From NCBI GenBank assembly GCA_023014335.1, contig JAECYW010000003.1, positions 496,001 through 560,000 on the forward strand: a DNA stretch of 64,000 nt, in the 5' to 3' direction. Under the pieces are notes generated by a model. That model was given only the letters and a program-made list of their open reading frames with translations. It had not been told where the DNA came from and did no database searches. Positions 3,401 to 44,653 of this stretch are shown piece by piece (position 1 is the first letter of the stretch; each line of letters starts with the position of its first letter). This DNA comes from Galerina marginata (lineage: Eukaryota > Basidiomycota > Agaricomycetes > Agaricales > Galerinaceae). The position numbers were made by a program, and so were the translations under genes.

Positions 3401-4311
3401 CGGCTTGACTCGTCAAGTATCCGCTCGTCATAGCCTACATATAAATCAAACATGCCTCCACAGGCGCGGCCCGCGAAATGGGTGGCTAAATCTTCTGTAG
3501 CCGGTGGCAGACCCGAATGCGCGATGGTAACTGCATTCAAAGGTTCCAGACTGTGTACTATCCTTAGACTTTTTCCATCCTTCTTTACTACAGTAAACCA
3601 TCTAGATCTGAATGACGAGTTCGACGGCTCATAGACTCCTGAGTCCCTTTTTGACTTGATTATTTTACAAACCTCGTCGTATAGTCCGGGAGGTATGGGA
3701 ATATTTTTATATACCCAAGGAGTGTGTTCTACGGTAGGGATGACTACGGGAGGGAAGAAATCTTCCCTAAATTGTCCGCGTTCAGTGTCATCCCAAGCAA
3801 AAGCGCCGTTCTGCTCCATCATAAAATGGTGGACCAGTTTTCTTTCTTCTGGGAGTAAGAAATCACCGTCATGTACCTTATCAAATGCCTGTTGTCGTTC
3901 CGCGGTATACCGTCCAGTGGGAGTAAACTCAGGTGGGTGCGTACTTAACTTCGGCATATTTTCTAACGGATCTCCCTTAATTTCTCTCTTGATTCTAAAT
4001 TTTTCGGGCAATTCAGCATAGACAGGTTTTACTTTCTGAGCTACAGGCTTGTATTTCTTTCCTAAGAAAACCGACGCGGCAGGTCCAGAGGACGCTGAGA
4101 GTACTTCTCCTTGCTGAAAGAAAGCCTGCACTTTTTCCTTGTCTGACTTGTCTATGTCGTCTTCGTGTATTGCCGCGGCTAGGAAGGCATTCCTAACACC
4201 TTCATCTGAAAACTTCTGTCCTTTCGGTTCAGCATATCCTGCAATGGATATAGTCTGAGTTTCTTCATTCAACTCGAACAACAGCGCTACCTCTCCTTGA
4301 TCAGGGATCAA
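421..4311 (-). CDS. pol: Pol polyprotein: reverse transcriptase, RNase H, integrase
   Basis: About 1296 codons. The RT catalytic aspartates are in MFDLYVGYD (about residue 289) and YIDD (351-354). RNase H carries D524, E568, D594 and D638. The integrase has an HHCC zinc finger (H at about 890-894, C924 and C927) and a DD35E core: D954 in LHADVMHM, D1013 in VTDNGPAF and E1048 in [14 protein letters not shown]-like module with GPMIVIRR follows at about 1200, then an acidic tail. About 230 residues of acidic linker separate RNase H from the integrase, longer than in typical elements. The position given as start is a TTG codon. The frame runs open upstream into the protease stop region, so Pol is most likely made by -1 frameshifting from the protease frame rather than from its own ATG. 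Confidence 0.93.
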
Positions 4312-4325
4312 TTCCTCAAGGTGAT

Positions 4326-4334
4326 CTAAAAAGC
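4326..4334 (-). other. Candidate -1 frameshift site between protease and Pol
   Basis: On the minus strand the protease frame ends GCT TTT TAG. The run of five T lets a TTT-decoding tRNA slip back one base onto TTT, and the next codon is then TTA in the open Pol frame. A stop codon directly after the run would favour slippage. Pol has no ATG of its own at this point. Only the sequence arrangement is seen; a downstream stimulator was not analysed. Confidence 0.5.
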
Positions 4335-5510
4335 CTGAGCCTTCTTCCTCTGAAGGACATCCGGACTCTCGCCGCGGCGATAAGTAGGTAGCACAGCTCT
4401 GTTATTGCTATTGGGGTCGTTAATTACAATCCGTTGATCCCCATCGTCGCTGTTCTGTACCGTGCTGCTAGTCAGCACATCAAATGGTCGGCCTAGCAGG
4501 ACGCGGTAAGCGGGATTTTTAATGATGTGCACTTGTAGGTACACCGTAACCCCTCCAAACTGGAACGCGACATTTTCTGCTAGCCCTAAACTTTTCTCGA
4601 CTGACCCATTGGCGCTTTGCATGTTAATAGTGATATTAGGATTCCAAGTCAAACCCATTTCTACCGCTATAGCTTCTGCCATGGATACTATCTGTGACCC
4701 ACTATCTACAATAGACTCTTCTTGTCCGATATTATTGATCTTCGGATAGAGAGATCTCAGAGCATAAGTGTCGCGCGCCACATAGACTTCTTTGGGTACC
4801 GCGCCATCATGGGTTTGAGCAAATTGTAGGTACGGATCCGACGCGACTTTCAGATCAGGTCTCAGACTTTGGTCGTTAAGTATGCCAGCCAGCATATAAT
4901 TAGATACTGGTAGCTGGTCTACTGTTAGACCTGTCTCAATCTCCCTACTGCGCGCGTCTTCTTCCAACAATTCCTCCATGAGTACCGGTTTCCGTGTTTT
5001 AGTGACGTTCCTTTTCAGCGCGTCGCGAATGTTAGGCGCGTTACCCAAAAGGTTTCTCAAAGGGATGGACACTGATAAATCCAATATCTCTTCCAGAACC
5101 TTTTCTGAATCAGCCTGTTCTTCCACTGGCGCTTGGGTTTTATAGGACGGTCCCGGACGCGGCACTTCCTCACTGGTCGTCGGTTGAGGCGTTCCAGTGG
5201 GTCGCTGGACTGATTTCAAAGGTGGAACATCTACGTAAGGTAGCTCCTTAGGTTTTATTATTGCCTTAGGGAGACTCTCCTTTGTCGACGTCCTCTCTTT
5301 GACTTTCTTCCCCGGCCGCGTCGGTTCACGACGTACTTCTGCTACTTCTTCTTCGTCGCTGTTGGCCTCTTCCTCAGCTTCTGTCTCATTATCTACTTCT
5401 TCGCGGGCTGCATTTCTTTTTGCAAACCTAACGCTTCGACTGTTCTCTGGGGGCTTCGTTTTGGTTGACTTATCCGCTGGTCTAGAAGAGGAAGTCGCCA
5501 CCCCCTTCAT
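4326..5510 (-). CDS. Retrotransposon aspartic protease with long charged N-terminal extension
   Basis: 394 codons. The retropepsin active site is DSGS at 269-272 (usual form D-[TS]-G-[AS]), followed by the C-terminal strand motif VLLGRPF at 337-343. The first 200 residues are low-complexity, acidic and proline-rich, and have no recognised domain. The ORF starts at a real ATG five bases after the Gag stop, so it could be reached by re-initiation. It could also be reached by -1 slippage, because the frame is open back across the Gag stop. The 3' end overlaps the slippery site leading into Pol. In most Ty3/Gypsy elements the protease is fused to RT; here it is a separate frame. Confidence 0.85.
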
Positions 5511-5515
5511 CGAAC

Positions 5516-5527
5516 TTACTGAAAACC
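5516..5527 (-). other. Candidate -1 frameshift or re-initiation site between Gag and protease
   Basis: On the minus strand Gag ends GGT TTT CAG TAA. A one-base backward slip on TTT enters the protease frame with no stop before the protease ATG. That ATG lies five bases after the Gag stop, which also allows termination-reinitiation. Both routes fit; the sequence does not separate them. Confidence 0.4.
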
Positions 5528-7216
5528 CGACTGAGACGAGGTCTGGTCCGCGGCTTCTGCCCTAGCGAATTCAGCCCTTGTTAACACCCTATCGACAGCA
5601 TCTCTGCCATACTCTTGAGAGAGGAGTGCTAAGTGTCTCGCGATCTCCGCGTCACTTGCCAACCGATCATGAGCTTGAGTGTAGAAGACGTCGTAGTCTT
5701 CGTCCACATCTTGGAAGAAGCCCGTTTGTGGTGCGGGTTGTCTCGCCGGAACCGCTGGTCTGCCACGGTTCTTGAACTCAATTACTTCTTTCATTGTTTT
5801 GTTTCCATCCAACGGTACTAGGTCGCCATTAGGTAGTCGGATCTTATTTGTCTCGTTCCTTACTACCCAACCATAGGAAACATGCTTACTAGCATGTGGA
5901 CAATCCCCAATGCGATGACCCGTCTCCCTACAGTAGAAACAGATATTTCCATTGGAATCGCGGCCCATGTACGTATTGTTCCTGTTGTACATTCCCGGTG
6001 GATTAGCTGGTGGTCCGTTAAACGGAGTAGGAGTAGGCGCCTGTTTTAGTCCATTTATCGCGTTGAACATTTGATCGAGCCGCGTCGATATGTCCTGCGT
6101 TGTTCGAGCTTGGAGTTTAACGGAATCTTGTAATGTTGCCATTCCTTCTTCTAGCTTTGGGATTGCTTCCCTATCATAAGACGCGTCCGGTCTACCATAG
6201 GCCGCGGCAGTTTCGTTAGTGCCGTACCGACTTCCTGACTGGTAGTTACGTTCCGCGACTATTATCGCGGCATCGATCACATCGTTAAGAGTAAAGCGAT
6301 CCTCGTTCCTCTTGCGCTCGACGGTACCATCAGGCGCCGTTGGCTTAGTCCTGTCATTGAGAAGGTCCAGCCTATCTTCGATACGCCTTACAAACTCTGG
6401 ATGAAGACAAGAATAAAATTTTAAAACTAGTTCCCGGTTAGACATTAAAGCTGGAGGCGTTAGAAGTTTAGCAGCCTCGGCACAGAAGGACCTTTTCAAA
6501 CTCAAGAGTTCTTCTAGGTTTTCCTCTCTAATGCGCCTGCCACCTCCTTTCGCGCGAATTATCTTTTCCAACCTCTCTAGCGAGCCTGTCTCTAGGGCCG
6601 CGGCCTCGGGGTAACTTTTTATAATTTCTTTCTTATAATCTTCCCAAGTTCCTGGTTCTTTGTAGGAAGCAAACGCCTGCCACTCAGACTCTGTTACGGC
6701 TGTCGCGTACTTTCCTAGGAGCTTTTTCTTTTCTGCGTCGTCTTCTATCTTATTTGTTTTGTACAAGTCCTCGATCCTACTAATAAATCGTAGTAGTTCC
6801 GATGGCTGGTCTTCGTCGAACTTGGGCGCGTCTCGCGAGCCCGGGATTGGCATAGTCATTTTGTCTGAACTTATTATGGGTTCTGGGACTACGTCGGGTA
6901 TTGGGTTGACTGTACTTTGTGCTACAGTTGATGGTGTTGTTAACGCGAGTGCAGAGGTGGACCTGATTATATCTTCAGGTTCTATACTGGCTCGTCTTTG
7001 TTGGTGATCCAAATTAGCTTCGATCCGCTGTCTATAGCGTTCCTGAGCTGGATTTTTAGGCTTGGCTGGTTTAGATTTACTAACGCTTGGTAGCTTGTCC
7101 TGATACGGAACTACGGGTCTATTAGAATTGACTGTGGTTCTCGTCGGTCGCCGGACAGTTACGGTCTGAGGGACTTGACTTGTGGTCGCGGCACCTTCAG
7201 TACTTTCTTGCTCCAC
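5516..7216 (-). CDS. gag: Gag capsid/nucleocapsid protein with CCHC zinc knuckle
   Basis: 566 codons. A CCHC knuckle (C426, C429, H434, C439, in CFYCRETGHRIGDCPH) follows a helical capsid-like region at about 130-290. The start given is a GTG; no in-frame ATG occurs before residue 120, an ATG at 6857-6859 that opens MTMPIPGSRDAPKFD. The frame is open for about 15 codons upstream of the GTG before a TGA, and those codons are basic and protein-like. Either translation starts at 6859, or the leader is spliced, or the original start was lost. The C-terminus (QSGFQ) ends at a TAA set beside a run of T. Confidence 0.88.
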   Translation of the reverse strand: MEQESTEGAATTSQVPQTVTVRRPTRTTVNSNRPVVPYQDKLPSVSKSKPAKPKNPAQERYRQRIEANLDHQQRRASIEPEDIIRSTSALALTTPSTVAQSTVNPIPDVVPEPIISSDKMTMPIPGSRDAPKFDEDQPSELLRFISRIEDLYKTNKIEDDAEKKKLLGKYATAVTESEWQAFASYKEPGTWEDYKKEIIKSYPEAAALETGSLERLEKIIRAKGGGRRIREENLEELLSLKRSFCAEAAKLLTPPALMSNRELVLKFYSCLHPEFVRRIEDRLDLLNDRTKPTAPDGTVERKRNEDRFTLNDVIDAAIIVAERNYQSGSRYGTNETAAAYGRPDASYDREAIPKLEEGMATLQDSVKLQARTTQDISTRLDQMFNAINGLKQAPTPTPFNGPPANPPGMYNRNNTYMGRDSNGNICFYCRETGHRIGDCPHASKHVSYGWVVRNETNKIRLPNGDLVPLDGNKTMKEVIEFKNRGRPAVPARQPAPQTGFFQDVDEDYDVFYTQAHDRLASDAEIARHLALLSQEYGRDAVDRVLTRAEFARAEAADQTSSQSGFQ

Positions 7217-9557: not shown

Positions 9558-11780
9558 CTAGATTTTCTTGATCAAGGGGCACTGTCCACTTTTCTGTAAT
9601 TTTACACGAGTCATCCTATTTCGAAGTAGAATCATCTGGTCCAAGAAAAAATTATACCTCTCAACCCTCATTTCACGAAGAATTGCATGAAAGCCTCCTA
9701 ACCACACATTTGTCTGCTCGGCAATCAAAGAATTGAAATACCATGCCTTACCATTTTCTCCGAGCAGTTCAGGATACATGGCGGGATTGCAATTGCGCTG
9801 ACACCAGACGTCTTCGGTTGAATGCTTGCAATTAAAGTGGAAGACGTCAACTGTAAGTCCAATGTCTTTAAAGAAAGGGTCGTTCTTGACATGACGGGAA
9901 AGCGAGCAGTTGTTGTCGAAAAAGATATGGTTCGGCTTTTGACCATTGATCTTGAACGTGCGCTTTATGAACTCCTTTAAAAAGTTGAAAGGTTAAATCT
10001 CTGCAATAGAAGGGAAACGAGGACATACTGCGCAGGTTGCAATCGCTTCGGCTCCAAAAAATGTCTCGCGTGCAAGAATCATACCACAAGGGGCAACCAA
10101 AATCTGCTCGTTGTGTGTTCTCCTCCTCCCAAACCGTGCCGAAATTCTTTTTTTGCTGGTTGCGCTCTTCGGCAGGGGAGCAATCCCTCGTGGATCTGAA
10201 ACCCCCTCATTGACACCGTGAACCAAGTTTGCATCCTCTTCGTTCACCTCAAATTCTTCTTCCTCCTCATCATCGACGAGTTCTCCTACGTTGACCTCTT
10301 CTGCGATTCCGTCTTCTGGGTGTGATACGCGTTGTCGTTTCAACTTTTCCTGGAGCTGGACACGAGATTCTCCCCGTAATATGTAAATGCGCTCGACTTC
10401 CTGATGGGATGGATCTGCACAGGTCCGTTTTCCTTCGAGAATGTGTTCGTTGCAATCCTTGATAGCGCATATAATGCTTAGGTCACGGTGCAGGGGACAA
10501 TACCGATCTCGTGATGTTGCCAATGGAATTTGACAGTTGTGAACGGCGCAACATATATGCCCCAGTGTCACTCCATCCATAACAACAACCCAGACTGATT
10601 TGATAGCTGAATTGCTGTCAGTCGCTTGCCACTAATAGCTATAAGAGATATTAGACGTACGATTTCCCAGAGCATCTTTATATGTCCGTGTACAAGTCTC
10701 GCATCGATGGAAGACTTCCTTTTGGCCATAGAGTTTAATGCGAGTGTTGCGTGCCTTGACAGCTTCCGTAAAACGATTGGCTTGTTCTCCTACATGAGGA
10801 ACAATCAGGGTTGTGTTGCGCTCGTGGTGATCTTCGAGAAGGGAAACGATGGTGAATCCGTCTTGGACATGATCTCCTTTGAGGGCGGCTTTGACAGGCC
10901 AGTCCGCTGGAAGGCAATCTGGTCCTACGAGTGCGACTTCGTAAGTGCGGGCACAGTTCGTGAAAGACTTCCTATATGCGCAAGTCAATAATGTTCTGAA
11001 GGCATCAAGTCTCTCGGACGCACCATGCAATATTCGTATCTGTTGTCCACATATTTACAAGCCTACGCTCAACATATTGGTGTTCCCCCACTTGGATCAC
11101 TTCTGGTATATCGCCATCGTAGTAGTGTCGCATGCCGTTCTTGACAGAATAATTCTTATAGTAGGCCGTGTTACAGCCTGAACGCGTTGCACATAAAATA
11201 TTTGAGTGAGTTAATTGATATTCGAAGTGAGAAGACCCACCTTCGCACTGAAATCTAATCACCCATACTGGGAGAGCACCTTTATCTAATGTATAGAGGA
11301 CACCTTGTGTTTGGTCTGTCTTCTGGAGCTTGCGACCCTTTGTCGGGTGGCTGCACTCGCTATTGGTGCAGTAATTCACAGGAGGATATAAACAGGCTGT
11401 CGAACCATATCAACATAGCTTCAATGAAGAAGGCATTCGGAACTGAACTCACTATAACCGAGATCCCCACCGTGTAACTTGAATCTCTCATCTATCGCTT
11501 TTGCCTCTTCAGCATCATCCCACACCCTGTCCTTCAGGTACGACCAAAGTTTTTCCGTTGACTTCTGATCAATCTCACATATCCGAGAAAGAAGAATCAT
11601 CACGGATTCTGGCAAGAACAAGGGCGCTTCACTAGCAGGCCAGTTTGATGCCTGCGCAAGGAGTATCTCATTCTTGAAGCGTGGTGCGTATTGAAGAAAA
11701 CAAGATATCTTGAGGAGCATTTCCTGGTTTAAGATGTCCGGAAAACTGTCAGCAAGCTCAAGGAATTCGTGCACTGCCAT
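9558..11780 (-). CDS. KDZ-type transposase-family protein with CxC5 and CxC6 cysteine clusters
   Basis: Five exons: 11780-11453, 11396-11024, 10971-10661, 10606-10029 and 9974-9558. They sum to 2007 nt (668 residues) with consistent phases; introns are 52-56 bp. The order is a helical N-terminus, a CxC5-like cluster (YCTNSEC, with further cysteines downstream), a CxC6-like cluster (CETCTRTYK, then CCAVHNC and CPLH), an acidic linker, and a KDZ-like C-terminal core. The core keeps possible catalytic acids in FFDNNC (about D550), VDVFHF (about D573) and AEQTN (about E616). These clusters accompany Kyakuja-Dileera-Zisupton transposons in basidiomycetes. The protein is the short form, without the large N-terminal transposase part. 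It is intact, so it is either recently active or kept for another use. No terminal inverted repeats of its own were found. Confidence 0.85.
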
Positions 11781-12069: not shown

Positions 12070-12869
12070 AAGCCATTCAGAAATATGGGCTGTTTGAATT
12101 TCAGAAAAACATTACTACAGTATTTAACGGGTACTTTGTACACCAAAATTAACTTTGCTCAGTTTTCAATATGATGCCGTCCATAAAATATCAATAAAAT
12201 TATATAAACATGTAGCTATACATCTCATAGTCTTTTATACCAAATTTCAGAGCGTGAAGAGAACATCATGTTGAGTAATTCACTCCTCAAGACGAAGTCA
12301 TTTTCGCAGCCCGTTTATAAATACTTTGTACACCGGCTTTTACTTATCTGCCGGTCAGCTTTTCCTGGACTTTGTTAACCCTGAGTAGTAATGCTATCAA
12401 ATCTCGGCATCCCCCTCCCCCCTCTTCCATTGGTATTTCGCCATTTTCTCAACGAGTTTGCATCTAATTCCCCTAATTTCTTTTGCATAATATGTGGTTA
12501 TGATACCTTAATGTCCTGAATGTACCAAAATTCCCAATTTTTCAGTGATTGCTATTCAAGAACCCAAATACCATTTTCGGAAAACTATCCAATTTGGGTA
12601 TCTCAGGCACCGGCACTGACCCACTTGATTTCTACCCTCCGTTCCGTACTTTTATATCGCCCATGGGCAGTACTCATATGTAGGAAACCAAATATAATAG
12701 TAGATATACCCGATAGTCTCAAAAAACTCAACTGTACAAAGGACCCATAGTGTACAAAGTACCCGTTAAATACTGTATATGGAGTACCGCCGGTACTCCA
12801 TTAATTATTTCGGTACTCCATATAGTAATGTTTTTCTGAACTTTGAACAGTCCATATTTCCGAATGCTT
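12070..12869. mobile_element. Non-autonomous inverted-repeat (MITE-like) element
   Basis: Positions 12070-12143 and 12750-12869 are inverted copies of each other, about 73 bp and nearly identical once a 45-bp insertion in the right arm is removed. Inner arm ends read GTGTACAAAGTAC; outer ends contain CATTCAG/CTGAATG-type sequence. The roughly 600-bp interior is AT-rich with no credible ORF. A further copy of the inner motif (TACTTTGTACACC) lies at about 12320. No clear target-site duplication is seen at the outer ends. It sits just upstream of the KDZ gene's start, but nothing shows that the gene mobilises it. Confidence 0.65.
12776..12824. mobile_element. Nested 45-bp mini-MITE with TA target duplication
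   Basis: Against the left arm of the surrounding inverted repeat, the right arm has an extra 45 bp (12778-12822). It starts TATGGAGTACCG and ends with the exact reverse complement. It is flanked by TA at 12776-12777 and 12823-12824, while the uninterrupted arm has a single TA. A perfect 12-bp terminal inverted repeat plus a TA duplication is the signature of Tc1/mariner-type insertion. At 45 bp it is near the lower limit for such elements. Confidence 0.7.
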
Positions 12870-31025: not shown

Positions 31026-32103
31026 ATGTCCACGCCTATTGATACAAGCAAAGTTCCTAATTACTTCAGTTACCTTCCGGTTCGCATACACAAAGAGACC
31101 GCTGCTATTGATGGCGCTACTCGCGACGCTATCGAATACTGTGCGCCTGAGGGCTCAAAAGAGCGGCAGCAGGCGATATATCGACACAGTAACCCATTCG
31201 GGAGTCCCTATGCGCTTTGTCACGCGGAGTGCGACCTAGAGAAGCTCGAGTTCTTTGTCAAGGTCATAGAGATGATTTGGATTGATGATGGTACGTACAC
31301 GTGTATGTTTCCTCGAGCAGCGATTCATAACTCACCCAACTGCCCGACTAGACGTTACTGAGGAATTACCTCATGAAATTGCCCAGCATGAACATGAAAT
31401 TCTCCGCCAAGGTCTAGACCCATTGCAGGATTCCAACCCTGATACGGGGAAGACTGTCGGTGTGAAAAAGCAGTACCTTCGTGATGCACGGAATGGTATG
31501 CTGGCTTTGGATCCTGTGGGCACGCCTGATCTGCTCCGTACCCTCGACCGATATCTCCGTGAGTACGACAGTAATGACCAAGATTTCTGCACATTGGAAG
31601 AGTATTTGCCGTATCGAATCCCGAACGCGGGCTACCGGTCAGTTTCTTTGGCGGTAATGTAACTGAAGTAACGAGACTGATGTAACTGGAGCAGTATTTG
31701 CAGCCACTTTACCCGTTGGGCGATGAATATCCGTTTGACGAATGAAGAGCGGGCCGCCGTGCACGAGTTCGAATGGACTCTTGGAGGAGTTGTAGCTCTA
31801 ACTAATGACTACTTCTCTTGGAAAAAAGAGAAGTTCCAAGCAACAGACAGAGTACGGAATGCTGTTCCTGTTTTGATGCGCCAGTACGGTTTGCCACAAC
31901 CTGCAGCACGAACACTTCTTAAGGGCATGATCGTCGACGAAGAAGAGAAGGCGAAAATGTTGCGAATGAAGTTGGAGACAGGTAAAATATCGTCGGAATT
32001 GAAGCGTTATCTCGATGCTTTAGAGATATACGCTGGCGGTAACTGTTATTGGAGTGCCACATGTCCGCGTTACAATAGGCCCCAAGAAGTTGAAAAAAGA
32101 TAA
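31026..32103 (+). CDS. Class I terpene synthase (stand-alone cyclase domain)
   Basis: Exons 31026-31290, 31352-31637 and 31704-32103 give 951 nt (316 residues). Introns are 61 and 66 bp. The metal-binding aspartate-rich motif is DDVTE (residues 88-92, split by intron 1). The NSE motif is complete at N218, S222 and E226 (NDYFSWKKE), and an RY pair (R306, Y307) lies near the C-terminus. The set and order match fungal class I cyclases that ionise a prenyl diphosphate with Mg2+. In style it is closest to the cyclase half of fungal chimeric di/sesterterpene synthases, but no prenyltransferase domain follows. The product cannot be predicted. No P450 or other tailoring gene is adjacent. An alternative ATG lies at 31014. 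Confidence 0.85.
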
Positions 32104-33553
32104 CGGTTGTGGGTTTTCAAGTATACAGAAATTTCTCTTTAATTGGCTTACCGTCCTTGGTCCATTATTTTAAACGGTGTCCTTAATACACTAGAGTACC
32201 GTGTCTACCATAACGCATCTATTTTTGGGTACGACGCGACCTCTTGACCCCTAAACTGGACGCGTTGTGTACGTATATTTGGAATCCAAGTTATTGATTT
32301 GACCGAAGAGCTCTGATCGCAATGACCCACGCGTTCGCGCTTCAGTACCACCACCACTCTCGAGCTCCCTCTCAGATTTTCGTGCCCAGACCAGTCAGCT
32401 ATCTGATACACTCCCTAACCACCCTTCTCGTTGTCCAGGAATGTTGCTTGCACCCCGAGGAAGTAAACAAGACGATGCTGTTCGAACTTCCCGAAGAAGT
32501 TGTTTGTTTAGATGCCCCGCCGAATAAGTACCCAACAAGGGCGAACTATTCAATAAGGCTACAGCTTTTCTTTATGCCAGTGTATTTCACGCTCGAGATT
32601 CTCGACTGAGAAGCTGTAATTCCCTCGTACGTCATCTCCTGGTCTTGCCTTCGTCCTACCCTTAAACTCTCCTCCTTTCTCAGACTTTAACTTTATGTAA
32701 GACCGGCGATGAATTGGGACTACATTTCAGCACGTTAGCCTCGCTTGAGGATATCACATTCGTGTCGTCTACTGTCACGTCTCTTTGGGCACATCAGTGC
32801 GGAGTACCCTCGTCAACTCCGACTGCATCGTTGAATATTGACCGGTGGTGTGGTTATAGAGTATTATGAAGCCGCCTCAGAACGAGTGAACCGCTTTCTA
32901 CGATCATGGCGAGCCTCTCTTCCAACATCGATGAAGCGAATATGTATTATGTGGTATGTTCCCGCCTCTCTTCTTCTCTCTCCCCATCACAAACTGTATA
33001 CTTGACAGGAGTTTATAGTTGAGTTCGTTTTCTTTCGCTGAAACCCTGCAATTCGTTAAAGTAGAGCGGGAAACGGTTACATGTCAGGTCATCGGTACGT
33101 ATTTGTTCTTGTCGACCCTCCCGTCTAACTTTGGATACGAACAAGAGCTGATAATCCGTTTGCAGGACAACCGTCCTGGTTTCTCTGCAGTCAAAGGCTG
33201 CGGCTTTCCGGTCAGCGTTTGATAACCGCCGACCGCCTTCCGACGTTATATTTTCACGATACCACGGCGAGGTAAATTCGTTCTAGCTTACTTCTCAAAC
33301 TATTCGCCTAATTGGTTGGATTGTGACAGGTTCATACATTCAATTCAAATATAAACCCTTTGGAGTGGGTGCTCGTCACTCGCAATCAAGCTCCTGCAAA
33401 CCCCGTGAACCGCACAGTCGGAACTTAGAAGTATCAATGTACGTCCCAATCTTTTCGAACGCGTCTATGCGATCCAATACAGTGTCCGTCCAATTATAAC
33501 TGGGAATACACGTGCAAATGCGTAAGAACTAAGGGTGTGGTACCAGGTGAGGT
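32104..33553 (+). other. Partial copy of the duplicated unit's flank
   Basis: Blocks here recur in the duplicated region: GACGCGTTGTGTACGT at about 32257-32275 matches about 35880 and 39752, and the stretch around 33195-33280 (CGGCGAGGTAAATTCG) matches about 37440-37550. Plus-strand frames near 32950-33230 look partly coding, with splice-like boundaries, but no gene can be assembled. It is probably a decayed first unit of the tandem array. Confidence 0.4.
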
Positions 33554-35081
33554 TCACGATCGTCCAGCCTTGACAATATCATAAAACTTTGTCCCAGCAT
33601 AGTCTGCCGTGAAGCTGAAGGCAGATAGTTAGGTAAAAAATCCCTGCTAGTGAGTAGTATACATACCTTCCACTAATAGTCTTATCCTTGAACCTGTATT
33701 TTGGACAATACGTCACCTCCAGCGTCAGCTTAAGCTTCATAGGCTGGCGATCCTCCTTAAGCCTCAACAAGACAGCGAACCGCGCATTGTTGACCACTGA
33801 TAGCTCCTTTTTCATTCGTGCAGCGACACCCAAGGAAACTTCGAACGTTCCTCTTGCGTCGTCGAACCGGCTTTCGCTGCTTTGCCCCGCCATGAGCGTG
33901 GTTTGGACTGATTTCATGTAGGTCAGTGTAGCTTGGAAGGTCGGTTTTCCGGCTGTGATTCCTCCCATGATCTGACCAGTGTTTGTGGATGTCAGCTGGA
34001 CCGCGCCTTTGGTTAGGGTATCTTGGGTGTCGTCTTCTGGCACGCATCGGATCTCCTAGGAGCGAGTGAAAAAGGAGGGTTATGAGTGTTTAGGGATGCA
34101 TTAAGAAATTAAGGTGCCGATTTACCTTTACGTTCACGTCTTGATAAGAGCCGTCTCTGATGAACTCCCCCTTCAATTTCACAGCGGAACGCTTCTTTTC
34201 ATCCTCTCCTTTTTCGAGACGGAATGCTAGAATACAGTACGGCACTCCTACGTCTACGCCATATCTTTTGAGGACGGTAAATGGATATATGGAAGGAGGA
34301 GCATGATAGGTGAAACGCACCGGATCTCGATTTGCATGATTTTGTACAGTGCATGCGTCTTGAGAGGGCGGTGAAGCGTGAATATCTCCCGATCCGCTAT
34401 CGGGTGAACACGAATTAAGGCATCAGTAAAGGGTTTAGGTGACTAGTATGGATTCTTTGAATGTGCCGTACGTTTGTCGTCCAGAGAGTTTTTAAACGGT
34501 GCGACGACGGCTGATTCCAACTGCGAAGGCGTTGACGGATTAAAACTAGTTTGCCCGACTGAACTTTGGGAAGGGCCCACGCTTATACCCGTTCCGGAGT
34601 CTACTTGACTGCCTCCAGGTGAAGGAGAGGGGGAGGCAGATGCGCTCGGCGCCAGGCAGTTGAGAGTGTGGCTTCGTGCTTCGACGATATTAGCTCAGTG
34701 TGGCCAACTCATGGGGAAGGAAAACTCACTACCGCCCGGCTGAACCGTTTCAGACGTAGGCGATCCATGAACGTCGCCATCAACGCTCATGTGAAGACCG
34801 CCTCTCACATCGAGCCCCGTTGCGTTCCTGAAGAACGATGTATTTCGCCGCTGTCGTTGCTGAGATGGTTGGACCGAGCCTGTGGGGCTCTGATTGCCTG
34901 GATAGACGAGGTTTCCACCGATGTCGACGAAGTGTCCGCCATCGATTTTGACGTTACTTGCGCCTTCGAAAAAGCTGGATTGGGCTGGTGACGAGCTGAA
35001 AGGAGGCTGACGAGGGCTGTAGCGGTTGTCTTCCCCTTCGATATCGGTCTGGACTCGTGGTCTTTCGTGTCGTTCAGCCAT
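33554..35081 (-). CDS. Two-motif protein with beta-rich C-terminal domain, paralog A
   Basis: Exons 35081-34730, 34678-34472, 34385-34126, 34055-33667 and 33614-33554 give 1269 nt (422 residues), all phases consistent. The N-terminus has two imperfect copies of one motif: SFFEGASNVKIDGGHF at 36-51, then G, and SFFRNATGLDVRGGLH at 82-97, then VDGDVHG. A Ser/Pro-rich linker follows, then a domain of about 220 residues with alternating hydrophobic pattern (GVPYCILAFRLEKGEDEKK, GEFIRDGSYQDV, MKLKLTLEVTYCP). No known family, signal peptide or membrane segment is recognised. The first intron (34679-34729) must be removed, because it contains a stop. The intron-2 acceptor is taken at GGGAG, the only one found that keeps the frame. 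Confidence 0.75.
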
Positions 35082-37720
35082 GGCTATGAGGATTGGATGG
35101 GGGAGAGCATTGTTTGTGGATACGGAGAGTATTTAGATGGAGAAAAAACAAGGTGTTGCATAGCCATCAACATTGACACGACGGAAGGTTTGAGAAATAT
35201 AAGGCGTGGCTTGGATTCAATTGACGATAAATTAAGGACAAGACGCAGGCTGTGCATGTCAGGAGGAATATGGGCCATGTGTAGCTGTCAGTTGTGTCGC
35301 CACGTTTCAACTTATAATTATACATAATGGCTGATCGATATTGATCTAGCTGACAGTTTGTGGCTGTAGTCGTGTTGGTGAGAAAGACTGCGAATGAGAC
35401 ATCGAATATGTACCAATCGAAGCTCTCGTAAAGTTACAGCGAGGGCGTTAACAATTATCGAAGGTGTACAGCGTAAAATGAAGGCCTGAAGCAAAAAAGT
35501 TAGGCGGAGCGCCCAGGTTTGATGTACAAAGTAACCATGGGCTCTTGGCGCCTAAATGGTAAAAATAGCCCCACATGCATCGTCTGCCACATCGTTGGTA
35601 AAATGTCATCTGGCAGGAAGGATTTACCGCTTTAGACTAAAAGTCGCAATGTATTCGAATCCCACCGATTCTGACTCTGTTAACTGTGGCGAAGGTAACT
35701 ACGAGGATTGAGCCCGTCGTCTGTGCATCATCTAAATCGGGGTCAGAGGATAGGCTACTCGTGGTCGAAAAAGTAAAGATTAAAGCAAGGCAGTGTAGCG
35801 AACCTTGGTAACGCCTCGCACGTTCCCGGGGACCCGTGAACATCACCGTGAATCAAGGCTTCGACGCGACCCCTGAGATTGACGCGTTGTGTATGTTTGT
35901 TTACAATGCAAGTCGTTGATCCCACGAGCCACTGGCCCGCCATTCTTTGACAATGACAACCGCCATCGCTTGATCCTCTCTCAAATTTCAAGGTCTTGCG
36001 CATCGACTAAGCCAGCAAAAAGGTTCCGTTCGAACTTACGACCACGACTACGGTGTGTCTGAATTCCCTACAGGACGTATAGCCTTTTTGGAGAAAGATC
36101 GCCATCACTGGCAGCAGTTTCGCCTTGGGCAGAAAGGGTACATATTCGGGATCGTCAGTGAGAGATTGTGACGCTGTCGTACGCCTTTTCTGGTTTCTTT
36201 CTTTACCATAGCTCTTGAACTGACCTCTTTTCCAGCACTTTTGGACTAGTGGCTTGCACCGAATTCGACTCCGACTAACGCCGTCGTGAACATGCCATTC
36301 ATGTCGTCTCCCGCTTAGCACCTTCCAGACGATGGATCGTTAGTCAAAGTACAGGCTCTTCAGCTGGTTTTAAGTATGAAGATCAGTATTGCAATCTTCA
36401 ATGGAGTTGTATCAACGTATGGGTCCTTTCCTGTCCTTCTTTCTCCCCGCCTCGAACATTTCACTTCACAGAAACTCGGACGGAGCTCGTCGTGCATCTT
36501 TCCAACTCTCGCTGTGTATCGACAGACCCTAGAGCTCCGGGTGTTCAGCTGAACCTTCAGGAACCGGGGTTGATTAATATGGAGTGCGGCTGAGAGTTTA
36601 TTGATCAGACAGTTTACCTACTACCTACGTCGTCTCAGGTCAGCGCTACATGAGCAAGTCTTCGTCTTCTTCCATGTGCATATACTCGGGTATGCATCAA
36701 ATCCTGCCGCGTCATGACAAGAAAGAGCATTAGACAACTTCATGCAGCCCCGAGTGAGCAGATTCATGATAATGGGCAAGGTAATTCCAGTTTTGGTTTT
36801 TTGTTGTTATACGCGCGAACTTATATGGTTGGAGTGCGCCTGGTTCATATATGCACCCAGAAAGTGAAGATCTTGGACCACGGCCGTCACCCGCGCCCCA
36901 GTTTTCAGCAAGTCCTAGAGTAGCGGCGTTGAGATTTGGAGCCAAGGCGCCGATGAACGTACGTTCTACTGTTTCCCCGCCTCTACGTTATCTGAACTCC
37001 GTTCTGTAGTATTCTTATTGTATATGCGTGTCGGTCTCAGCCTACGTGACGCTTATAAAACCAAGTGATCGTGTAGGCCTTTTCCATGTCACCCTCCATT
37101 CTATATAATTGACATCCCCTTTAGATATTTGACGTCTTCTATCGCATCGACTGAGTGGTCTCTCGTACGGGGATGGAAAAGCTCCACAAGCCACAGAAAG
37201 TCTAGTGGGCGATGCGACGACCAGGATTTGTTCTTTTGCCAGTAGAGATAGGTACTTATACTTATGTTTCTTTTTTTTCGAGCAACATTATTATACTGAC
37301 AATTTTTGTTACCAGTTTAACCGTATAGCTCTATACCCGCGCTCCCAACCCATTGGCTTTTAAAAAGATCATTTCTCTGCCTTAAACCCGCGTATTCTAA
37401 GAGCCAGCGTAGGTCAGCCGTCCTGTTTTCTCAGCAGTTATGAGCCAATTTTCAAATGCTGCTGCTTTCGATCAGCGTCTGACAATCAGCCGACGGCCTT
37501 CTGATCCCGTTTTTTCAGGATAACGTGGCGAGGTAAATTCGCCTTGCTTTTGTTCTAGACTATACGATAACCGCCCCGTCGGAACTTAGAAATATCGGTA
37601 TCAATGTACGTCCTAGCCTTTTCGAACCTGTCTCTGCTATTCAACGCAGTATCCATTATATAGTCACTCGGCTTGCATGTATGAATGCGCAAGAATTAAG
37701 GATATGGTACTAGGTGCGGT
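35082..37720 (+). other. Plus-strand flank of duplication unit 1, possible decayed gene
   Basis: No intact gene is found. Short protein-like stretches end at splice-donor-like words (GTATCAACGTATGGG at 36409, GGTATCAATGTACGTCC at 37598) and recur in unit 2 and near 46930. Equivalent frames in the two units are broken at different points. I read it as degenerating copies of one unknown multi-exon gene. Confidence 0.35.
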
Positions 37721-39248
37721 TCACGATCGACCAGCCTTGACAATATCATAAAACTTTGTCCCAGCATAGTCCGCCGTGAAACTGGATGCCGATAGTTAGG
37801 TCAAAACCTGCCAGTGATTATTATACACACCTTTCACTAATAGTCTTATCCTTCCACCCGAATTTTGGACAGTACGTCAGCTCCAGCGTCAGCTTAAGTT
37901 TCATAGGCTGGCGATCCTCCTTAAGCCTCAACAACAGAGCGAACCGCGCATTGTTCACCACAGACAGCTCCTTTTTCATTTGCGCATCGACACCCAAGGA
38001 AACTTCGAACGTCCCTCCCGCGTCGTCGAACCGGCTCTCGCTGCTCTGTCCGCGTATGAGCGTGGTTTGGACTGATTTCATGTGGGTCAGTGTAGCTTGG
38101 AAGGTCGGTTTTCCAGCAGTGAGTCCTCCCATGATCTGACCGGTGTTCGTTGTTGTTTGTTGGACAGGGCCTTTTATTAGAGTATCTTGGGTGTCTTCTG
38201 GCACGCATTGGATCTCCTAGGAGCGAGCGAAAAAGGAGGATCACGAGTTATTAGGGATGCATGATAAAGATAGGATGTGATGATGTGATTCACCTTTACG
38301 CTCACGTCTTGATAAGAGCCGCCTCTGATGAACTCCCCCCTCAGTTTCACAGCGAGACACTTCTTCTCATCCTCTCCTTGCTCGAGACGGAATGCCAGGA
38401 CGCTGTACGGCACTCCTCCGTCCACGCCATATCTTTGAAAGATCAATAAATATACGGAGGGAGGGGCATGATAGGCGAAACCCACCGGATTTCGATTTGC
38501 ATGATTTTGTACAGTGCATTCGTCTTGTGGGGGCGGCGAAGCGTGAATATCTCCCGATCCGCTATCGGTGGACACGAATTAAGGCATCAGTTAAAGGTTG
38601 AGGTGAGTAGTATCGATGCTATGAATCTGCCGTACCTTTGTCGTCAAGAGAGTTTTTAAAGGGTGCGACGGCTGATTCCAAACGCGAGGTAGTTGACGGA
38701 TTAACGCTTGTTTCTCCGACTGAACTCGGGGAAGGGTCGATGCTTGTACCAGTTCCGGAGTCTACTCGACTGCTTCCTGGTGAAGGAGAGTGGGAGGAAG
38801 ATGCGGTCGCCGCCAGGTTGTTGAGAGTGCGGCCTCCTGCTTCGACGATATCAGCTCCGTGTGGCAAACCCATGAGGAAGGAAAACCTACGACCGCCCGG
38901 CCGAGCCAATTTAGGTGGAGGCGATCCATGAACGTCGCCACCAACGCTCGTATAATCTCCGCCTATCACCTTAGCCCCCGTAGTATCTTTGAAGAACGAT
39001 ATCGATGTATTTTGTCGTTGTTGTTGTTGAGGTCGTTGGACTGGGTCTGTTGGCCCATAAGCGCCTGGATAAAAGACGGACCCATCAACGGCGGTGAAAC
39101 GTCCGCCGTGAACTTCAGCGTCTCTTGCGCCTTCGAAAAAGCTGACTTGGTCTGGCGACAAGCTGGAAGTAGGCTGGTGGGGCCTGTCGGGGTCGTCCTC
39201 CACTTCGATATCGGCCTGGACTCGTGGGCTTTCGTGTGGTTCAGCCAT
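37721..39248 (-). CDS. Two-motif protein with beta-rich C-terminal domain, paralog B
   Basis: Exons 39248-38636, 38550-38294, 38216-37831 and 37781-37721 give 1317 nt (438 residues). The motif copies are SFFEGARDAEVHGGRF at 36-51 (then VDGSVF) and SFFKDTTGAKVIGGDY at 84-99 (then VGGDVHG). Identical positions between the copies include S, F, F, A, V, G, G, T, V, G and V. The linker and C-terminal domain match paralog A closely (GVPYSVLAFRLEQGEDEKK, GEFIRGGSYQDV, MKLKLTLELTYCP). The region equal to intron 1 of paralog A (38840-38890, 51 nt) is free of stops and in frame, with a weaker GTAGGT donor, so B could retain it (438 residues) or splice it (421). Function is unknown; see the NACHT gene for a possible partner. 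Confidence 0.75.
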
Positions 39249-41888
39249 GACTGCGAGGATTGGAAGGGGGAAGCATTGTTTGTGGGTGGGGAGACATTTA
39301 GATTAAGGAAAAACAATGTGTTGCATAGCCATCAGCATTGACGCAAGGCGGGAGAAAATACAACACAAGGCAGTGGCTTGGATTCAATTGACGGTAAATT
39401 AAGGGCAAGACCCATGTCAAGTAGAAGGTGCGCCATCTGTACCTGTCACTGTGGCTGTTACCGTGTGGGTTCGAATGAATGCGAATGAGGTATCGTACAT
39501 ATGTATACCTGGTTTAAAATTTCGTAGAATTTGAGCTAGAGCGTTGACTCTTATCCAGCGTGTTAGGCGTAAAGTGAGCGAAGGCCTGAAGTAAGAAGAC
39601 ATTTGATGTACAAAGTAACCATGGGCTCTTGGCGCCTACGGATCGAGGCTGTGTCGGCCATTGGTTGTGCCTCCGCCTCGTGCGCTCATGTGAACATCCC
39701 CGTAATCTAATTACAGGTTTGAGTCCGTTGGACTCGGAAGCGACAGAGAAATCGACGCGTTGTGTATGTTGTGCCGGCTCGGGCTTGGCCCGAAAGCCCC
39801 GGCTTTGGCCTGGCTTGTTTCAACCACGCATCGAGTCGGACAAAACCAGAAACAAGGTCCCATTCGATCCCTACGACTACGACCAGGGTGTGTGGGCAAG
39901 ACGTATATCCTTTTTGACGAAGCGTCGCCGACTGCGGCGTCGCTTTAGGCAACATATTGGTTCTCAATGAGGAACCGTGACGCTCTCTTTCCCAGCACTT
40001 CAAACTAGAGGCTTGCACCAAATTCGACTCTCACTGACGTCGTTACGAACATGCCATTCATATGGGCTGCTTCCAACTTTCTTGGGCCCACCAGTGTGTA
40101 CGGGCAAGCTCGGCCCTAACTCTTCTCCGTCTTTATCGAAAAATCACCATTACCGTTCGGCTTAGCAGCTTTTAGAGCACACGAAGAGCACACGATGGAT
40201 CGTTGGTTGAAGTACAGGCTCTTCAGCAGGCTTTACGAAGATCGGTCTTCCAATAATCAGTGGAGTGGTGGTATCAATGTATGTGGCCTTTCGTCTCCTT
40301 CTTTCCCGCTGTGTCAAACATTCCATTTCACAGGGACTTGGACCAAGCTCGTTATGCTTCTTTCAACTCACGCTACGTATCGACAGGCTGGAGCTCCGGG
40401 CTGTCTAGCTAGACCTTCAACCACGGGTTCAGGTTGAAGAACGAAGAAACACCCCTAATTGGTTCCGATTTGTCGAAGCACTGGCAGAACGCGAGAGAGT
40501 TACGCGTCTGAACCGTCGTGCGCATCTTTCCTCCTCTAACCCTCCTTTTCCTTTTTGGATATGGAATGGGGTTGATATACTATCGGTTGGACAGTTTACC
40601 TGTCGTATACTTGACGCCGTCTGAGGCTTAGTGCAAAAAGAGCCGGTTTTCAGACTGTCCCATGTGCATATATGCATCATATCCTACCGCGTCTTGATTA
40701 TTGACCCAAGAGCGTTTTACAACTTCCTGTAGCCCCGACTGAACAGCAGGTCCACAATAACAGGCGAGGTAATTCCAGTCTTTCTTTTTTGTTGTTATAT
40801 GCGCGAACTTATGCGGTTGGTGTGCGACAGCTTCATATACTCGAGTTTGCAATCAGAGGGCGAGGATATCAAACCACCTTCATTTTCAGCGATGCCCTAA
40901 ATCGCGGTGTCGATGTATGTCCTCCATCTTTTTACCCTCCTCTAAGTCTCAAGCTGAGATTATTACTGTCTTTCAGTTATAATATTACTGTTCGGTAGAC
41001 ACGTCAGCCTCAACGTGCGCGAAGAGTATAGAGATATCAAGAGACTACGTACCACCGGGCTTTTTTGTCGTCGTAGTGAGTTCGATGTCACCTCACTTGC
41101 TCCGTTGACAAGTACTGATGATTATGCCTTCCTTTTTCGACGATAAGTATAGCAATCGTGTAACGATATCTACGCGTTTGGAAGAAGTACTTTCTTGCTC
41201 GCACCTCGTCATCCCTTGCTTCCGGAAACTTATCGCCATTGAGGACAGCATCAATTTATAACTTGGACATCGAAGATACCTTACGAGCAATGGAACAAGC
41301 TAATTTCTGGACATTTATCTATCTAAGCCGTCGAAACTTCACCCTGCAGAAGGTTAATCGTCCTTTTTTAATGATGTATTGCCTATAGATAGTTCTTGGC
41401 GATCGACAGTCAAGTCGTGCGGGGCAATTTGGAAAAAGCCGTGCAGCACCGAGTACGGCCGTGCATGAGGTACCGTGCTGCAACGACTACCGTGCACTGT
41501 CTTGGGTATAAGGCAGAGCCTACCGTGCATTCCCGTGTTCGCAAACTCAGTGACGGTGAACAAGTCAGCAAAAATAAATCTAAATCCGTTAATTTGTATA
41601 TTAGATTGAATATACTCGATAGGTACCAATTAAATAACCGCCTTCGCTAAATTCACCACTTAAATACCTTCTCTTCGTTATTGGCGGGGCTTACTTGCGA
41701 GTTTGGGTCCGAATACCGGCTCGGCAGGAGAGGTGCATCGAACACATTTTGGTCCTATAACCCGGGATTCAGTACAATTTCTCTTTTTAGTCGAGAGGCA
41801 TCGCAAATTCTCGGACGACATCCGTAGTATTGTTATGGCGGTATGTTAAGGGAAGCAACCAAGCAGCCTCGAGGCTGCGCCTGCAGAC
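39249..41888 (+). other. Plus-strand flank of duplication unit 2, possible decayed gene
   Basis: It is equivalent to 35082-37720. The best stretch is an exon-like frame from an ATG at 40195 (MDRWLKYRLFSRLYEDRSS) ending at GTATCAATGTATGT (40271), followed by a TTTCACAG acceptor. Similar donor words occur near 40909. No domain is recognised and the unit 1 copy is disrupted. From 41000 to 41860 nothing is recognised. Confidence 0.35.
41863..41878. repeat. Second copy of the palindrome GCAGCCTCGAGGCTGC
   Basis: Identical to 13295-13310. It lies about 10 bp downstream (minus-strand sense) of the stop codon of the frame that continues the NACHT protein. Confidence 0.8.
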
Positions 41889-42404
41889 CTATATGAGCTC
41901 AGCAAGTTTTTTCAAGGCTAAGAGTGAGAATTTATATGATGTGTCTGCCAGGTTTGGAGGCGCAGACTCGGCAACTTTTTTGGCCAATTCCAATCTTTGA
42001 GTTGAACGGTAAGCAATTGTGTTTGCCACCGTTCGAGAAGAATAGCGAGGAACTCTTTTCTTCATCGGTCGCTGTGGTGTGTCACCAGAAGAGATGGTAG
42101 TATGAGTATTGTAGTAGGAAATGGTTTTTCCTCCGTATTTTTCTTTGACAGTGATTCGAAATCCGTGTGGTACTGAACCACAGACTCGCGCCAGGTAGTT
42201 TGCGAATGTCCGGACTGTTACCTGAAAATTTCTTGTTGCTCTTCTAATTCCAATTTCTTGTGGGCAGCATTCATTTGGAAGGACAATGCACGGACTGTCG
42301 ATCATGAGCATTTCTATGAGCTCTGTGGATGGTCCAGCCTGAGGAACAAGGTCCTCAACAACATCTAAGATTTTGTATGCATCCGATGCTATTAGCCTAG
42401 ACAT
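41889..42404 (-). pseudogene. Displaced C-terminal part of the NACHT protein
   Basis: Directly after the NACHT stop, a second frame is open for 171 codons and begins ASDAYKILDVVEDLVPQAGP, a run of the kind that normally continues the NACHT protein's helical C-terminal region. The frames overlap by 13 bp and no GT..AG pair joins them, so one or more small indels probably caused a frameshift. If the start codon at 42404 were used, it could be a separate small protein, but the context speaks against that. Confidence 0.5.
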
Positions 42405-44653
42405 TTCTTAATGTATGCACTTTCCTTCTGATGATTAAGGACTCGCCTTTTATGATTCTCGTCATTGTATGGCTGTATAAGGAACTCCAGGAGTATCCTG
42501 GTGAGAGTGGCGAATTTTCTGCCATCGAGAATGTATTGGCCGGCTCGGAGGGGATCTGCTAGGAACTCCAACAAAAGCTCTCGGTACTCAGGAGACCTGC
42601 ATGGGCCAATATAATGGTATAAAGTGGATCGTAACCATCGATGTTTATCTGGTGCGAGTGGCATGCATATTTGAAGTTCAAACATTGGGGTTAGAATGGC
42701 ACCCAAGTCAAACATGACAAGACCCTGTATCTTGATGGACGCAGAAGCAACAATTGCGTCCACCATGGAATTAGACTCGATTTCGGAGAGTTTTTCGTGC
42801 AAAATTCTGTCCCATACTCCACGGTGATAAAGATAGAGTTGTTCGGTGTTGGAAAAACCCTGGAGGTTGCAGGAAATGAATCACTGCCTAGAGAATGTAA
42901 AAAAAGACAAGACACACCGATGTCTTCAGCCCCATGAGAAGCCTACCCACTAATTCAGCACACCACCATCCGTTGGCTTCTTTCGCGTTTCTTATAGCAT
43001 ATATACATTCGATAAATGGCGCTTTAAGAACCATCTCCTGTAGTTTATCTGTTGGATTTGCGCGGAATAAAAAATCTTCAGCCTCTTGAAACCACCAAGA
43101 GGCAAGTGCAATATCTTCCGGTGCTAACAAGAAGATATGTGACTTTAAATATGGACTTCCCAAGATAGACAACAGGAGGTACTCACTGTACTCGCTAATG
43201 TGCAGAAAACCAATACGGGTAAGATGAAGTAAAGCAATATGGGAAAGCTCTGTGAACATCGCCATAGGGTTGATATGGTACTCTTTTGACCTGACGTGAT
43301 CCAAAAAAAAGTCTCCTAGAGAAGCATGCAAAACCTTAATGTTGCTTTCCTCGTCAACCATTATAATGGAGGAGAGATCAGCCAGAAGGCGAATAGCATC
43401 CCCTTCATCAAGAAGCATGAGCCTCTCCATGAATTTCGTACTTTTGTCATAGGCATTGGAAAGAATGATTCCCCCTAGTAGTCGCAGGGTTGCATTTATA
43501 TCCTCGACGCGGGAGAGAATATCGCTGTACAAGGCATCGAGCTCGGCAAAAGGCATTTCATTTACTATAGCATGGAGACCGAGAATTATTTCCAAGCTTT
43601 TGGTGGGATTATACCGACTGGAGGAGATATATCGGATGACGGTGGCAGCGTATATAAACTGCCCAGACGATTTGGTGACAAGGGATGAAACATCTGCATA
43701 TGATGGCCATGCTGCGGGAATGGATCGTTTCTGGAGATGTGTCTTCTTGATTTGGGACAAGCAACCGTCGAAATATTGCCTGATGTCGGATTCGGGCCGA
43801 TACGCATCGTCGAGGGCAATATGTGCCGCGACACTCTCGAAAGCTGGGGCGGCGAAAGCGACACTAATCTCTCGCTCTGTTCGACTGGCGACTAGGATTA
43901 TCAGGTGAACGCAACCCTTGGAACGAGAAAGAGCATCGGAAATGGTTTCGAGGATGTGGCGTTGACCATTTGTGTCATTGCATTCGTCTAACCCGTCGAT
44001 TATCATCAAGCGCGGAGGTGGAACAGGGAATATCGTCGTTTTGTAAACCTGCATTAGTGGCTCAAGAATTAAGGCGTTGAATTGGGCTTGAAATGATCGC
44101 TGAAAAATGGCGGGATCATTCTTGACAACAGTTTCTATAAGACCTTTTGCCTGTGGTAGGTTTACCGCAACCTGGTATGCCAAACTTGCCGCGAGAGCCT
44201 TCACACTGTTCCGTTTGGGATCCGACCTGGAAAAAAAGAAGCTTGCTAATAAGCTGTGATTTTTGTGGCACATTTCCGCAATTGTTTGCGCGATTGCTGA
44301 TTTTCCTGCACCTGCGGGACCGTATAACCACATAATATACTCCTCCCATCCAAAGTTTCCGACGATCCAATCCATAACCCTTTTCAGAACGACGACTCGA
44401 GTGTTCGGGTAGCACTTTGGTGGATCAAAACGCTCTCCGGAGTTATGAAAGGCGCCTGGGGATGCAGCCTCAAGAAGAATCTCCATGCCTATGAGCGGGT
44501 TTAGTCAGGCGTGCAATTTCTCTACAGATAGACGGCAAGCCGCAAAATACACTCACCAGTTTTCTGGTTGGAGAAATGAACGGGGCCATGATATTCGGAG
44601 AGGTTTTGAAATGTGCTTCCATTGACTTGAAAATTCCTACTGTTGGGGAACAT
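42392..44653 (-). CDS. NACHT-domain STAND NTPase with motif-bearing N-terminus
   Basis: Exons 44653-44557, 44488-42918 and 42859-42392 give 2136 nt (711 residues); introns are 68 and 58 bp. Exon 1 encodes only MFPNSRNFQVNGSTFQNLSE and a few more residues. That is one copy of an F-x2-[SA]-x4-V-x-G-x2-F-x2-[VL] motif like the one repeated in the genes at 33.5 and 37.7 kb. Then come the linker ILLEAASPGAFHNSGERFDP, Walker A GPAGAGKS (about 89-96) and Walker B LMIIDGLDEC (about 192-202), followed by helical winged-helix and superstructure-like regions. No WD40, ankyrin or TPR repeats are seen. Fungal NACHT proteins act in non-self recognition and programmed cell death. The reading frame ends earlier than expected; see 41889-42404. 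Confidence 0.85.

Follow-up and report, generated by a model that had tools for sequence, protein, structure and literature searches.

The described systems that stand closest to the one considered here are the NWD2/HET-S pair of Podospora anserina and the NLR05/08/22/29/44 group of motifs from NOD-like receptors (NLRs), an essentially basidiomycete assemblage of 689 N-terminal sequences (Wojciechowski et al. 2022, PMC9815663). As far as the accessible part of that paper goes, its Table 1 gives zero neighbours and zero known effectors matching this group, the partner search having covered the C-terminal 100 residues of neighbouring proteins together with the known effector proteins. Its specialised searches found motif sharing with the C-termini of BaMLKL proteins in two species, NLR22 instances from Fibularhizoctonia being among the cases, and in two further species they found it with HeLo proteins; the same text concludes that amyloid signalling probably occurs in Basidiomycota and speculates that many NLRs might share one effector and that the counterparts may lie outside C-termini (PMC9815663). 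Here, we consider a locus of the agaric Galerina marginata in which a gene for a NACHT receptor with a single short N-terminal motif stands beside two tandem genes, A and B, each of which carries two motif copies of the same class. It lies in a stretch of 64,000 nucleotides that was analysed as a whole (the window; C23:496001-560000, where C-numbers denote contigs) from a genome of 69.3 Mb in 43 contigs. The comparison brings forward the N-terminal two-copy proteins as new candidate partners in trans for receptors of this kind.

A, B and the NACHT gene are all on the minus strand, and their models were rebuilt with canonical splice sites, the GT/AG introns of A and B being 49-77 nt long. A first-pass annotation of the window had described one motif on exon 1 of the NACHT gene and two in exon 1 of both A and B, over an interval whose exact limits are the stop of A (33554) and the start of the NACHT gene (44653); this three-gene observation is borne out by the rebuilt models, the features of which are as follows.

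33431-40839: tandem segmental duplication with A, B and flanks; ten direct-repeat blocks of 77-90% identity at a spacing of 3.76-4.17 kb
33554-35081, minus strand: gene A, 407 residues in 6 exons; splice-consistent model, paralogue of B
33554-34396, minus strand: exons 3-6 of A, the same C-terminal domain as in B
34782-34832, minus strand: motif copy A2 (FRNATGLDVRGGLHMSV)
34920-34970, minus strand: motif copy A1 (FEGASNVKIDGGHFVDI)
37721-39248, minus strand: gene B, 406 residues in 6 exons; splice-consistent model, tandem paralogue of A
37721-38561, minus strand: exons 3-6 of B, C-terminal domain under purifying selection
38943-38993, minus strand: motif copy B2 (FKDTTGAKVIGGDYTSV)
39087-39137, minus strand: motif copy B1 (FEGARDAEVHGGRFTAV)
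42392-44653, minus strand: NACHT (NPHP3_N) gene; 3' boundary uncertain, possibly to 41889
43881-44342, minus strand: NPHP3_N match of the NACHT gene
44557-44653, minus strand: exon 1 of the NACHT gene, 97 nt; single motif MFPNSRNFQVNGSTFQNL, 14 more residues and a split codon

Exon 2 of the NACHT gene codes for the NPHP3_N/NACHT NTPase (Pfam NPHP3_N, expectation value E=3e-27; NACHT, E=4e-11), and in gene A, exon 1 with its two motif copies is followed by a Ser/Pro-rich linker and then by the C-terminal domain. All five motif copies fit the pattern [FY]-x2-[ASTG]-x4-[VIL]-x-G-x2-[FYHL]-x2-[VIL] with identical internal spacing; the motif is 17-22 residues long, and its strand-GG-strand patterning was judged by eye. 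The core pattern has six matches in the six frames of the 64 kb window, namely the five described copies and an unrelated match at 12100, and in residue shuffles of A and of B (20,000 each), two matches occurred in 0 and one match in about 0.4%. At the DNA level, the core is matched twice in the window, by A1 and B1, where shuffles lead one to expect 0.20 matches. A tandem-repeat finder reported no repeat.

By profile score, a motif of the same class is present in the 5' region of a little less than half of the NACHT receptors sampled from this genome. The sample was made up of 720-base regions upstream of the 80 best-scoring NACHT loci, with the window's own included and three C27 rows duplicating C17 dropped; 150 of the 321 NPHP3_N candidates in the genome were scored. 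A 17-column profile built solely from 20 non-NACHT motif copies exceeds 9.5 bits in 37/80 of these regions in the sense orientation and in 1/80 antisense, in 0/338 overlapping tiles of the window from which the five known copies had been removed, and, when its columns are permuted (100 permutations), in a mean of 0.43 and a maximum of 2 of 80. The first-pass claim of a motif class common to NACHT first exons and non-NACHT proteins thus holds far over background, and its caution that similar short motifs are widespread was right. Because a profile from non-NACHT copies recognises NACHT 5' regions, the receptor-side and multi-copy motifs form a single class.

With the cut placed at the highest antisense score (16.2 bits), 19/80 NACHT 5' regions remain; without the A/B copies, the profile finds 36/80, and a profile from 17 copies (A/B, C34, C18, C43 and the Flammula protein described below) finds 33/80 vs 2/80 antisense. 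The window's own NACHT motif scores 14.7 bits, well under the best receptor score of 34.1. A regular expression, applied to the same 80 regions as a receptor-side measure, gave counts that were too low (9/80 in its strict form and 14/80 in its loose form, the latter with an implausible match at L094; 0/80 antisense with either), and the profile took its place. The core residues are conserved across diverged NACHTs and between genera, unlike the linkers.

Ten NACHT matches are clustered at C34:584k-672k, eight of them having first exons that are almost the same, of the type MFxNSKNIxIxGGNFTAV, and the receptor motifs closest to A1, A2 and B2 come from this cluster (C34:629k and 649k). On C17 and C27, many equal-scoring NACHT matches stand at a near-constant offset, which suggests that one contig of the assembly is a duplicate or an allelic version.

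On the partner side, A and B are, by their aligned motif regions, members of a dispersed agaric family with an N-terminal pseudo-repeat pair, R1 and R2, at near-constant spacing. A search of the genome with B found relatives at C34:439k, C18:290k, C18:379k, C18:405k and C43:2091k that match by the motif region only, with two copies in the four C18/C34 proteins and three in that of C43, as well as further weak matches at C34:3409k, C41:2138k, C40:479k, C23:2723k and C10:651k. In this search, the A/B C-terminal domain was unmatched in any of the C18/C34/C43 relatives, which by eye continue as Pro/Ser-rich sequence. The distance from R1 to R2 is 48 residues in B, 46 in A and 48, 48, 48 and 49 in the four C18/C34 proteins. 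The linkers of these six are unlike one another, and the earlier claim that the partner-side proteins carry the motif as pseudo-repeats is upheld by this spacing of 46-49; in the C43 protein, which lies outside that count, the copies are 93 and 94 residues apart by coordinates.

When public proteins were searched with a profile of six family sequences, a hypothetical protein of Flammula alnicola (Agaricales; 214 residues, E=3e-16) was the sole match at E<=1 among 911 candidates. Its copies are 53 residues apart, and its closest counterpart in this genome is C34:439k, at 41%. Over the seven proteins including that of Flammula, identity is 48% for R1-R1, 46% for R2-R2 and 38% for R1-R2. Single motif copies occur at four further loci (C39:214k, C18:358k, C18:237k and C42:2368k). 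The DNA core pattern has 25 matches genome-wide vs 2 for the reversed control, and 7/25 (C22, C26, C42:3182k) have nearly the same sequence and lack the upstream half of the motif. Near the C-terminus of the multi-copy proteins, a stretch resembling SVTAQ(L/I)GGLS was seen by eye, clearly in L015 and L020 and more loosely in L065; it was not made out in L018.

The tandem segmental duplication that gave rise to A and B has a period of about 4.16 kb. The ratio of non-synonymous to synonymous divergence (dN/dS) between them is 0.80 in exon 1, 0.59 in exon 2, 0.42 in exons 3-4 and 0.20 in exons 5-6 (0.26 for exons 3-6 together), and it is 0.54 and 0.60 for the two motif copies inside exon 1. The synonymous divergence varies less, from 0.21 to 0.35 by exon group, and since it is more even than dN/dS, the C-terminal domain emerges as the most constrained part of A and B. 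B has no Pfam match up to E=10, hence no known effector or death domain (HeLo, HeLo-like, SesB, PNP_UDP), and no match among the PDB sequences. The protein database, in which some fungal proteins are present and fungal coverage is uncertain, yielded no relatives of B as a full protein (E<=0.001) or as the C-terminal domain (E<=10). A structure model of exon 5 from two sequences had a predicted local distance difference test (pLDDT) value of 31, too poor for a fold search, and the beta-rich character that the first-pass annotation gave to this domain is a conjecture.

These patterns can tentatively be read on the scale of the whole genome, at a rough probability of 0.38, as a system in which the two-copy proteins would be assembled by the motifs of NACHT receptors in trans. 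The motif would be a small homotypic assembly unit, in which a GG turn joins two strands. A NACHT protein oligomerising on its ligand would bring several exon-1 motifs together, and these clustered motifs would nucleate or seed the assembly of the multi-copy proteins in trans, with many receptors feeding few partners. The constrained C-terminal domain of A and B would act as the output part, and the C18/C34/C43 relatives, in which that domain went unmatched, may be scaffolds. A more ambitious form of the proposal, which we regard as doubtful, is that amyloid-like receptor signalling in agarics takes the form of a trans network. A common motif class would connect scores of NACHT receptors to a few dispersed proteins, all of one family, with several N-terminal repeats, and the genes would therefore need no linkage in pairs. 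These proteins would be main partners for the largest receptor-motif group known from basidiomycetes, and the output domain of A and B would be one not yet described.

Several points weigh against assembly in trans, as do the possible HeLo-like and MLKL-like targets taken up below. The 9.5-bit cut was chosen after the window's top chance score (8.5) had been seen, and the NACHT matches cannot be treated as independent, since the 33 belong to 8 motif clusters, one of which accounts for 19. Constraint on exon 1 of A and B is weak, as the above dN/dS values for the exon and its motif copies indicate. Both structure models are poor; that of exon 1 (two sequences) has a pLDDT of 42 and a predicted template modelling score (pTM) of 0.12, with the solenoid fold remaining a prediction, and that of exon 5 is the one with a pLDDT of 31. 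A PDB search with the two-repeat alignment gave no HET-s chain and five chance-level matches (E 0.29-1.3). Pfam searches on the motif parts of six family members gave nothing significant and so no known death domain, and none was found on the Flammula alnicola protein or on B.

The alternative that survives best, a serious contender and itself short of probable, would have the motif serve as a generic tag for homotypic oligomerisation or targeting, which many agaric proteins employ independently of one another; the two-copy proteins would then receive no signal from the NACHT proteins. The motif stands at the start of an nSTAND1/NB-ARC type protein (L032, C13:378k) and is therefore not limited to NACHT receptors; it also occurs singly at the four loci given above, for which the nearest listed STAND match is 42-376 kb away. 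The other five multi-copy genes are likewise distant from the listed NACHT genes, their nearest listed STAND match being at 90 kb (C34), 208-322 kb (C18) and 743 kb (C43). A generic tag sits less well with the recognition of both the receptor-side and the multi-copy sets by one profile, and with the arrangement of one copy vs two at constant spacing, which mirrors known signalling systems.

The receptors might instead signal by the motif to HeLo-like or MLKL-like proteins, with the two-copy family as a bystander, and this we consider unlikely. PF17111, which we take to be a HeLo-like label, has six matches in the genome, three of them over the cut-off, and these are presumably HeLo-like candidates. 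Four lie on C1 (3993k-4082k) and the others at C43:2028k and C23:2567k. No HeLo (PF14479) match was found in the genome at E<=0.01, which tells against such targets, although no search was made for the motif in the PF17111 proteins or for the MLKL-like families (BaMLKL). In their favour, the accessible part of PMC9815663 reports, for a few agarics, a motif in common with BaMLKL or HeLo proteins.

Still less probable is a spread of exon 1 by shuffling or shared descent, with little constraint on it now. Such a history would suit the ends of exon 1 in the NACHT gene (97 nt) and in A and B (352 and 358 nt), which are all in phase 1, the exon 1 dN/dS of 0.80 in A and B, and the partial erosion of the exon 1 motif in two NACHT paralogues on C23 (619k and 810k; L077 and L095); the retention of core residues across diverged NACHTs and between genera, from which the linkers depart, speaks against it.

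Adjacency on one strand, one copy vs two and the same internal spacing favour the private cognate pair suggested by the first-pass annotation, in which the window's NACHT protein would template A and B as a basidiomycete analogue of NWD2/HET-S. When 20 receptor motifs are ranked by similarity, that of the window's NACHT gene comes 19th against B1, 20th against B2, 19th against A1 and 17th against A2, the ranked set coming from regular expressions and including one motif from an nSTAND1 protein (C13:378k), two that are identical and one of doubtful register (C40:3751k). The same motif is 15/20 identical to those of NACHT paralogues at C23:643k, 652k and 819k, which keep exon 1, while the convincing B-like matches on C23 are confined to the window, with a weak linker match elsewhere (C23:2723k, E=0.75). 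For real NLR/effector clusters, the accessible part of Daskalov et al. 2012 (PMC3321046) reports a closer resemblance among the extensions of one cluster than among those of orthologues. NACHT genes adjacent to multi-copy genes, for which the annotation had proposed to look, were seen once: among the listed matches (150/321 NPHP3_N candidates scored, so that low-scoring NACHTs may escape), a STAND gene lies within 90 kb of 0/5 of the remaining multi-copy genes. If 150-321 NACHT loci were evenly distributed, at least one of six loci would fall within 6 kb of a NACHT with a probability of 0.15-0.29. The private pair was therefore rejected as the leading explanation on its motif ranking and non-recurrent adjacency, and is the least probable of those weighed here; the closeness of A, B and the NACHT gene at this locus is most likely incidental.

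Elsewhere in the window, an open frame at 31681-32103 has a Terpene_syn_C_2 match (E=3e-12), and therefore a terpene synthase gene or remnant adjoins the A/B duplication. The frames at 421-5561 resemble a retroelement in their domains (integrase, RNase H and gag-type protease), and 9994-10631 codes for a CxC6 domain, of the kind associated with KDZ transposases.

With the multi-copy family linked to it by one profile, a receptor group whose defining paper lists no match among neighbours or known effectors, and suggests HeLo/MLKL-like partners in a few species alone, gains concrete candidates for its other half, the partner question becomes testable with peptides and reporter strains, and partner searches might drop the assumptions of adjacency and of a C-terminal motif. 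Our literature search, with most subscription journals outside its scope, found no earlier report of the N-terminal multi-copy family, and it found no basidiomycete partners beyond those of PMC9815663.

Matched by description and not by profile letters, the receptor motif very probably belongs to the published NLR05/08/22 group. In both, the motif is very N-terminal on the short N-termini of agaric NACHT proteins (here in the 37/80 NACHT 5' regions), has a length within 12-30 residues and recurs dozens of times per genome, with no co-localised known effector and with a G[DN] pair following in many instances. The difference from that group is in the second side, which here is N-terminal, multi-copy and dispersed, and this family would have been missed by a C-terminal search because its motif copies are N-terminal. 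With NWD2/HET-S, as described in the accessible parts of PMC3321046 and PMC7889193, the locus shares one motif copy at the N-terminus of the NACHT protein and two pseudo-repeats of the same class and low mutual identity, of about 21 residues in HET-S, on the other protein. It departs from that pair in that the repeats are N-terminal, in exon 1, whereas those of HET-S are C-terminal, and in having no HeLo or other known effector domain, no within-locus co-variation or within-cluster likeness of the motifs, and no recurrent adjacency; the fold here is moreover conjectural. The analogy with NWD2/HET-S, as first drawn, was thus fair in kind, with one copy vs two of a shared motif class, and wrong in scale, the comparison being one of genome-wide families instead of a local pair. 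A further parallel might be struck with HRAM3/NLR12 and its PNP_UDP effectors, for which the accessible part of PMC9815663 describes a single C-terminal copy joined to an enzymatic domain, in place of the two N-terminal copies found here; there too, receptor and partner mostly lie apart, and the receptors outnumber the partners.

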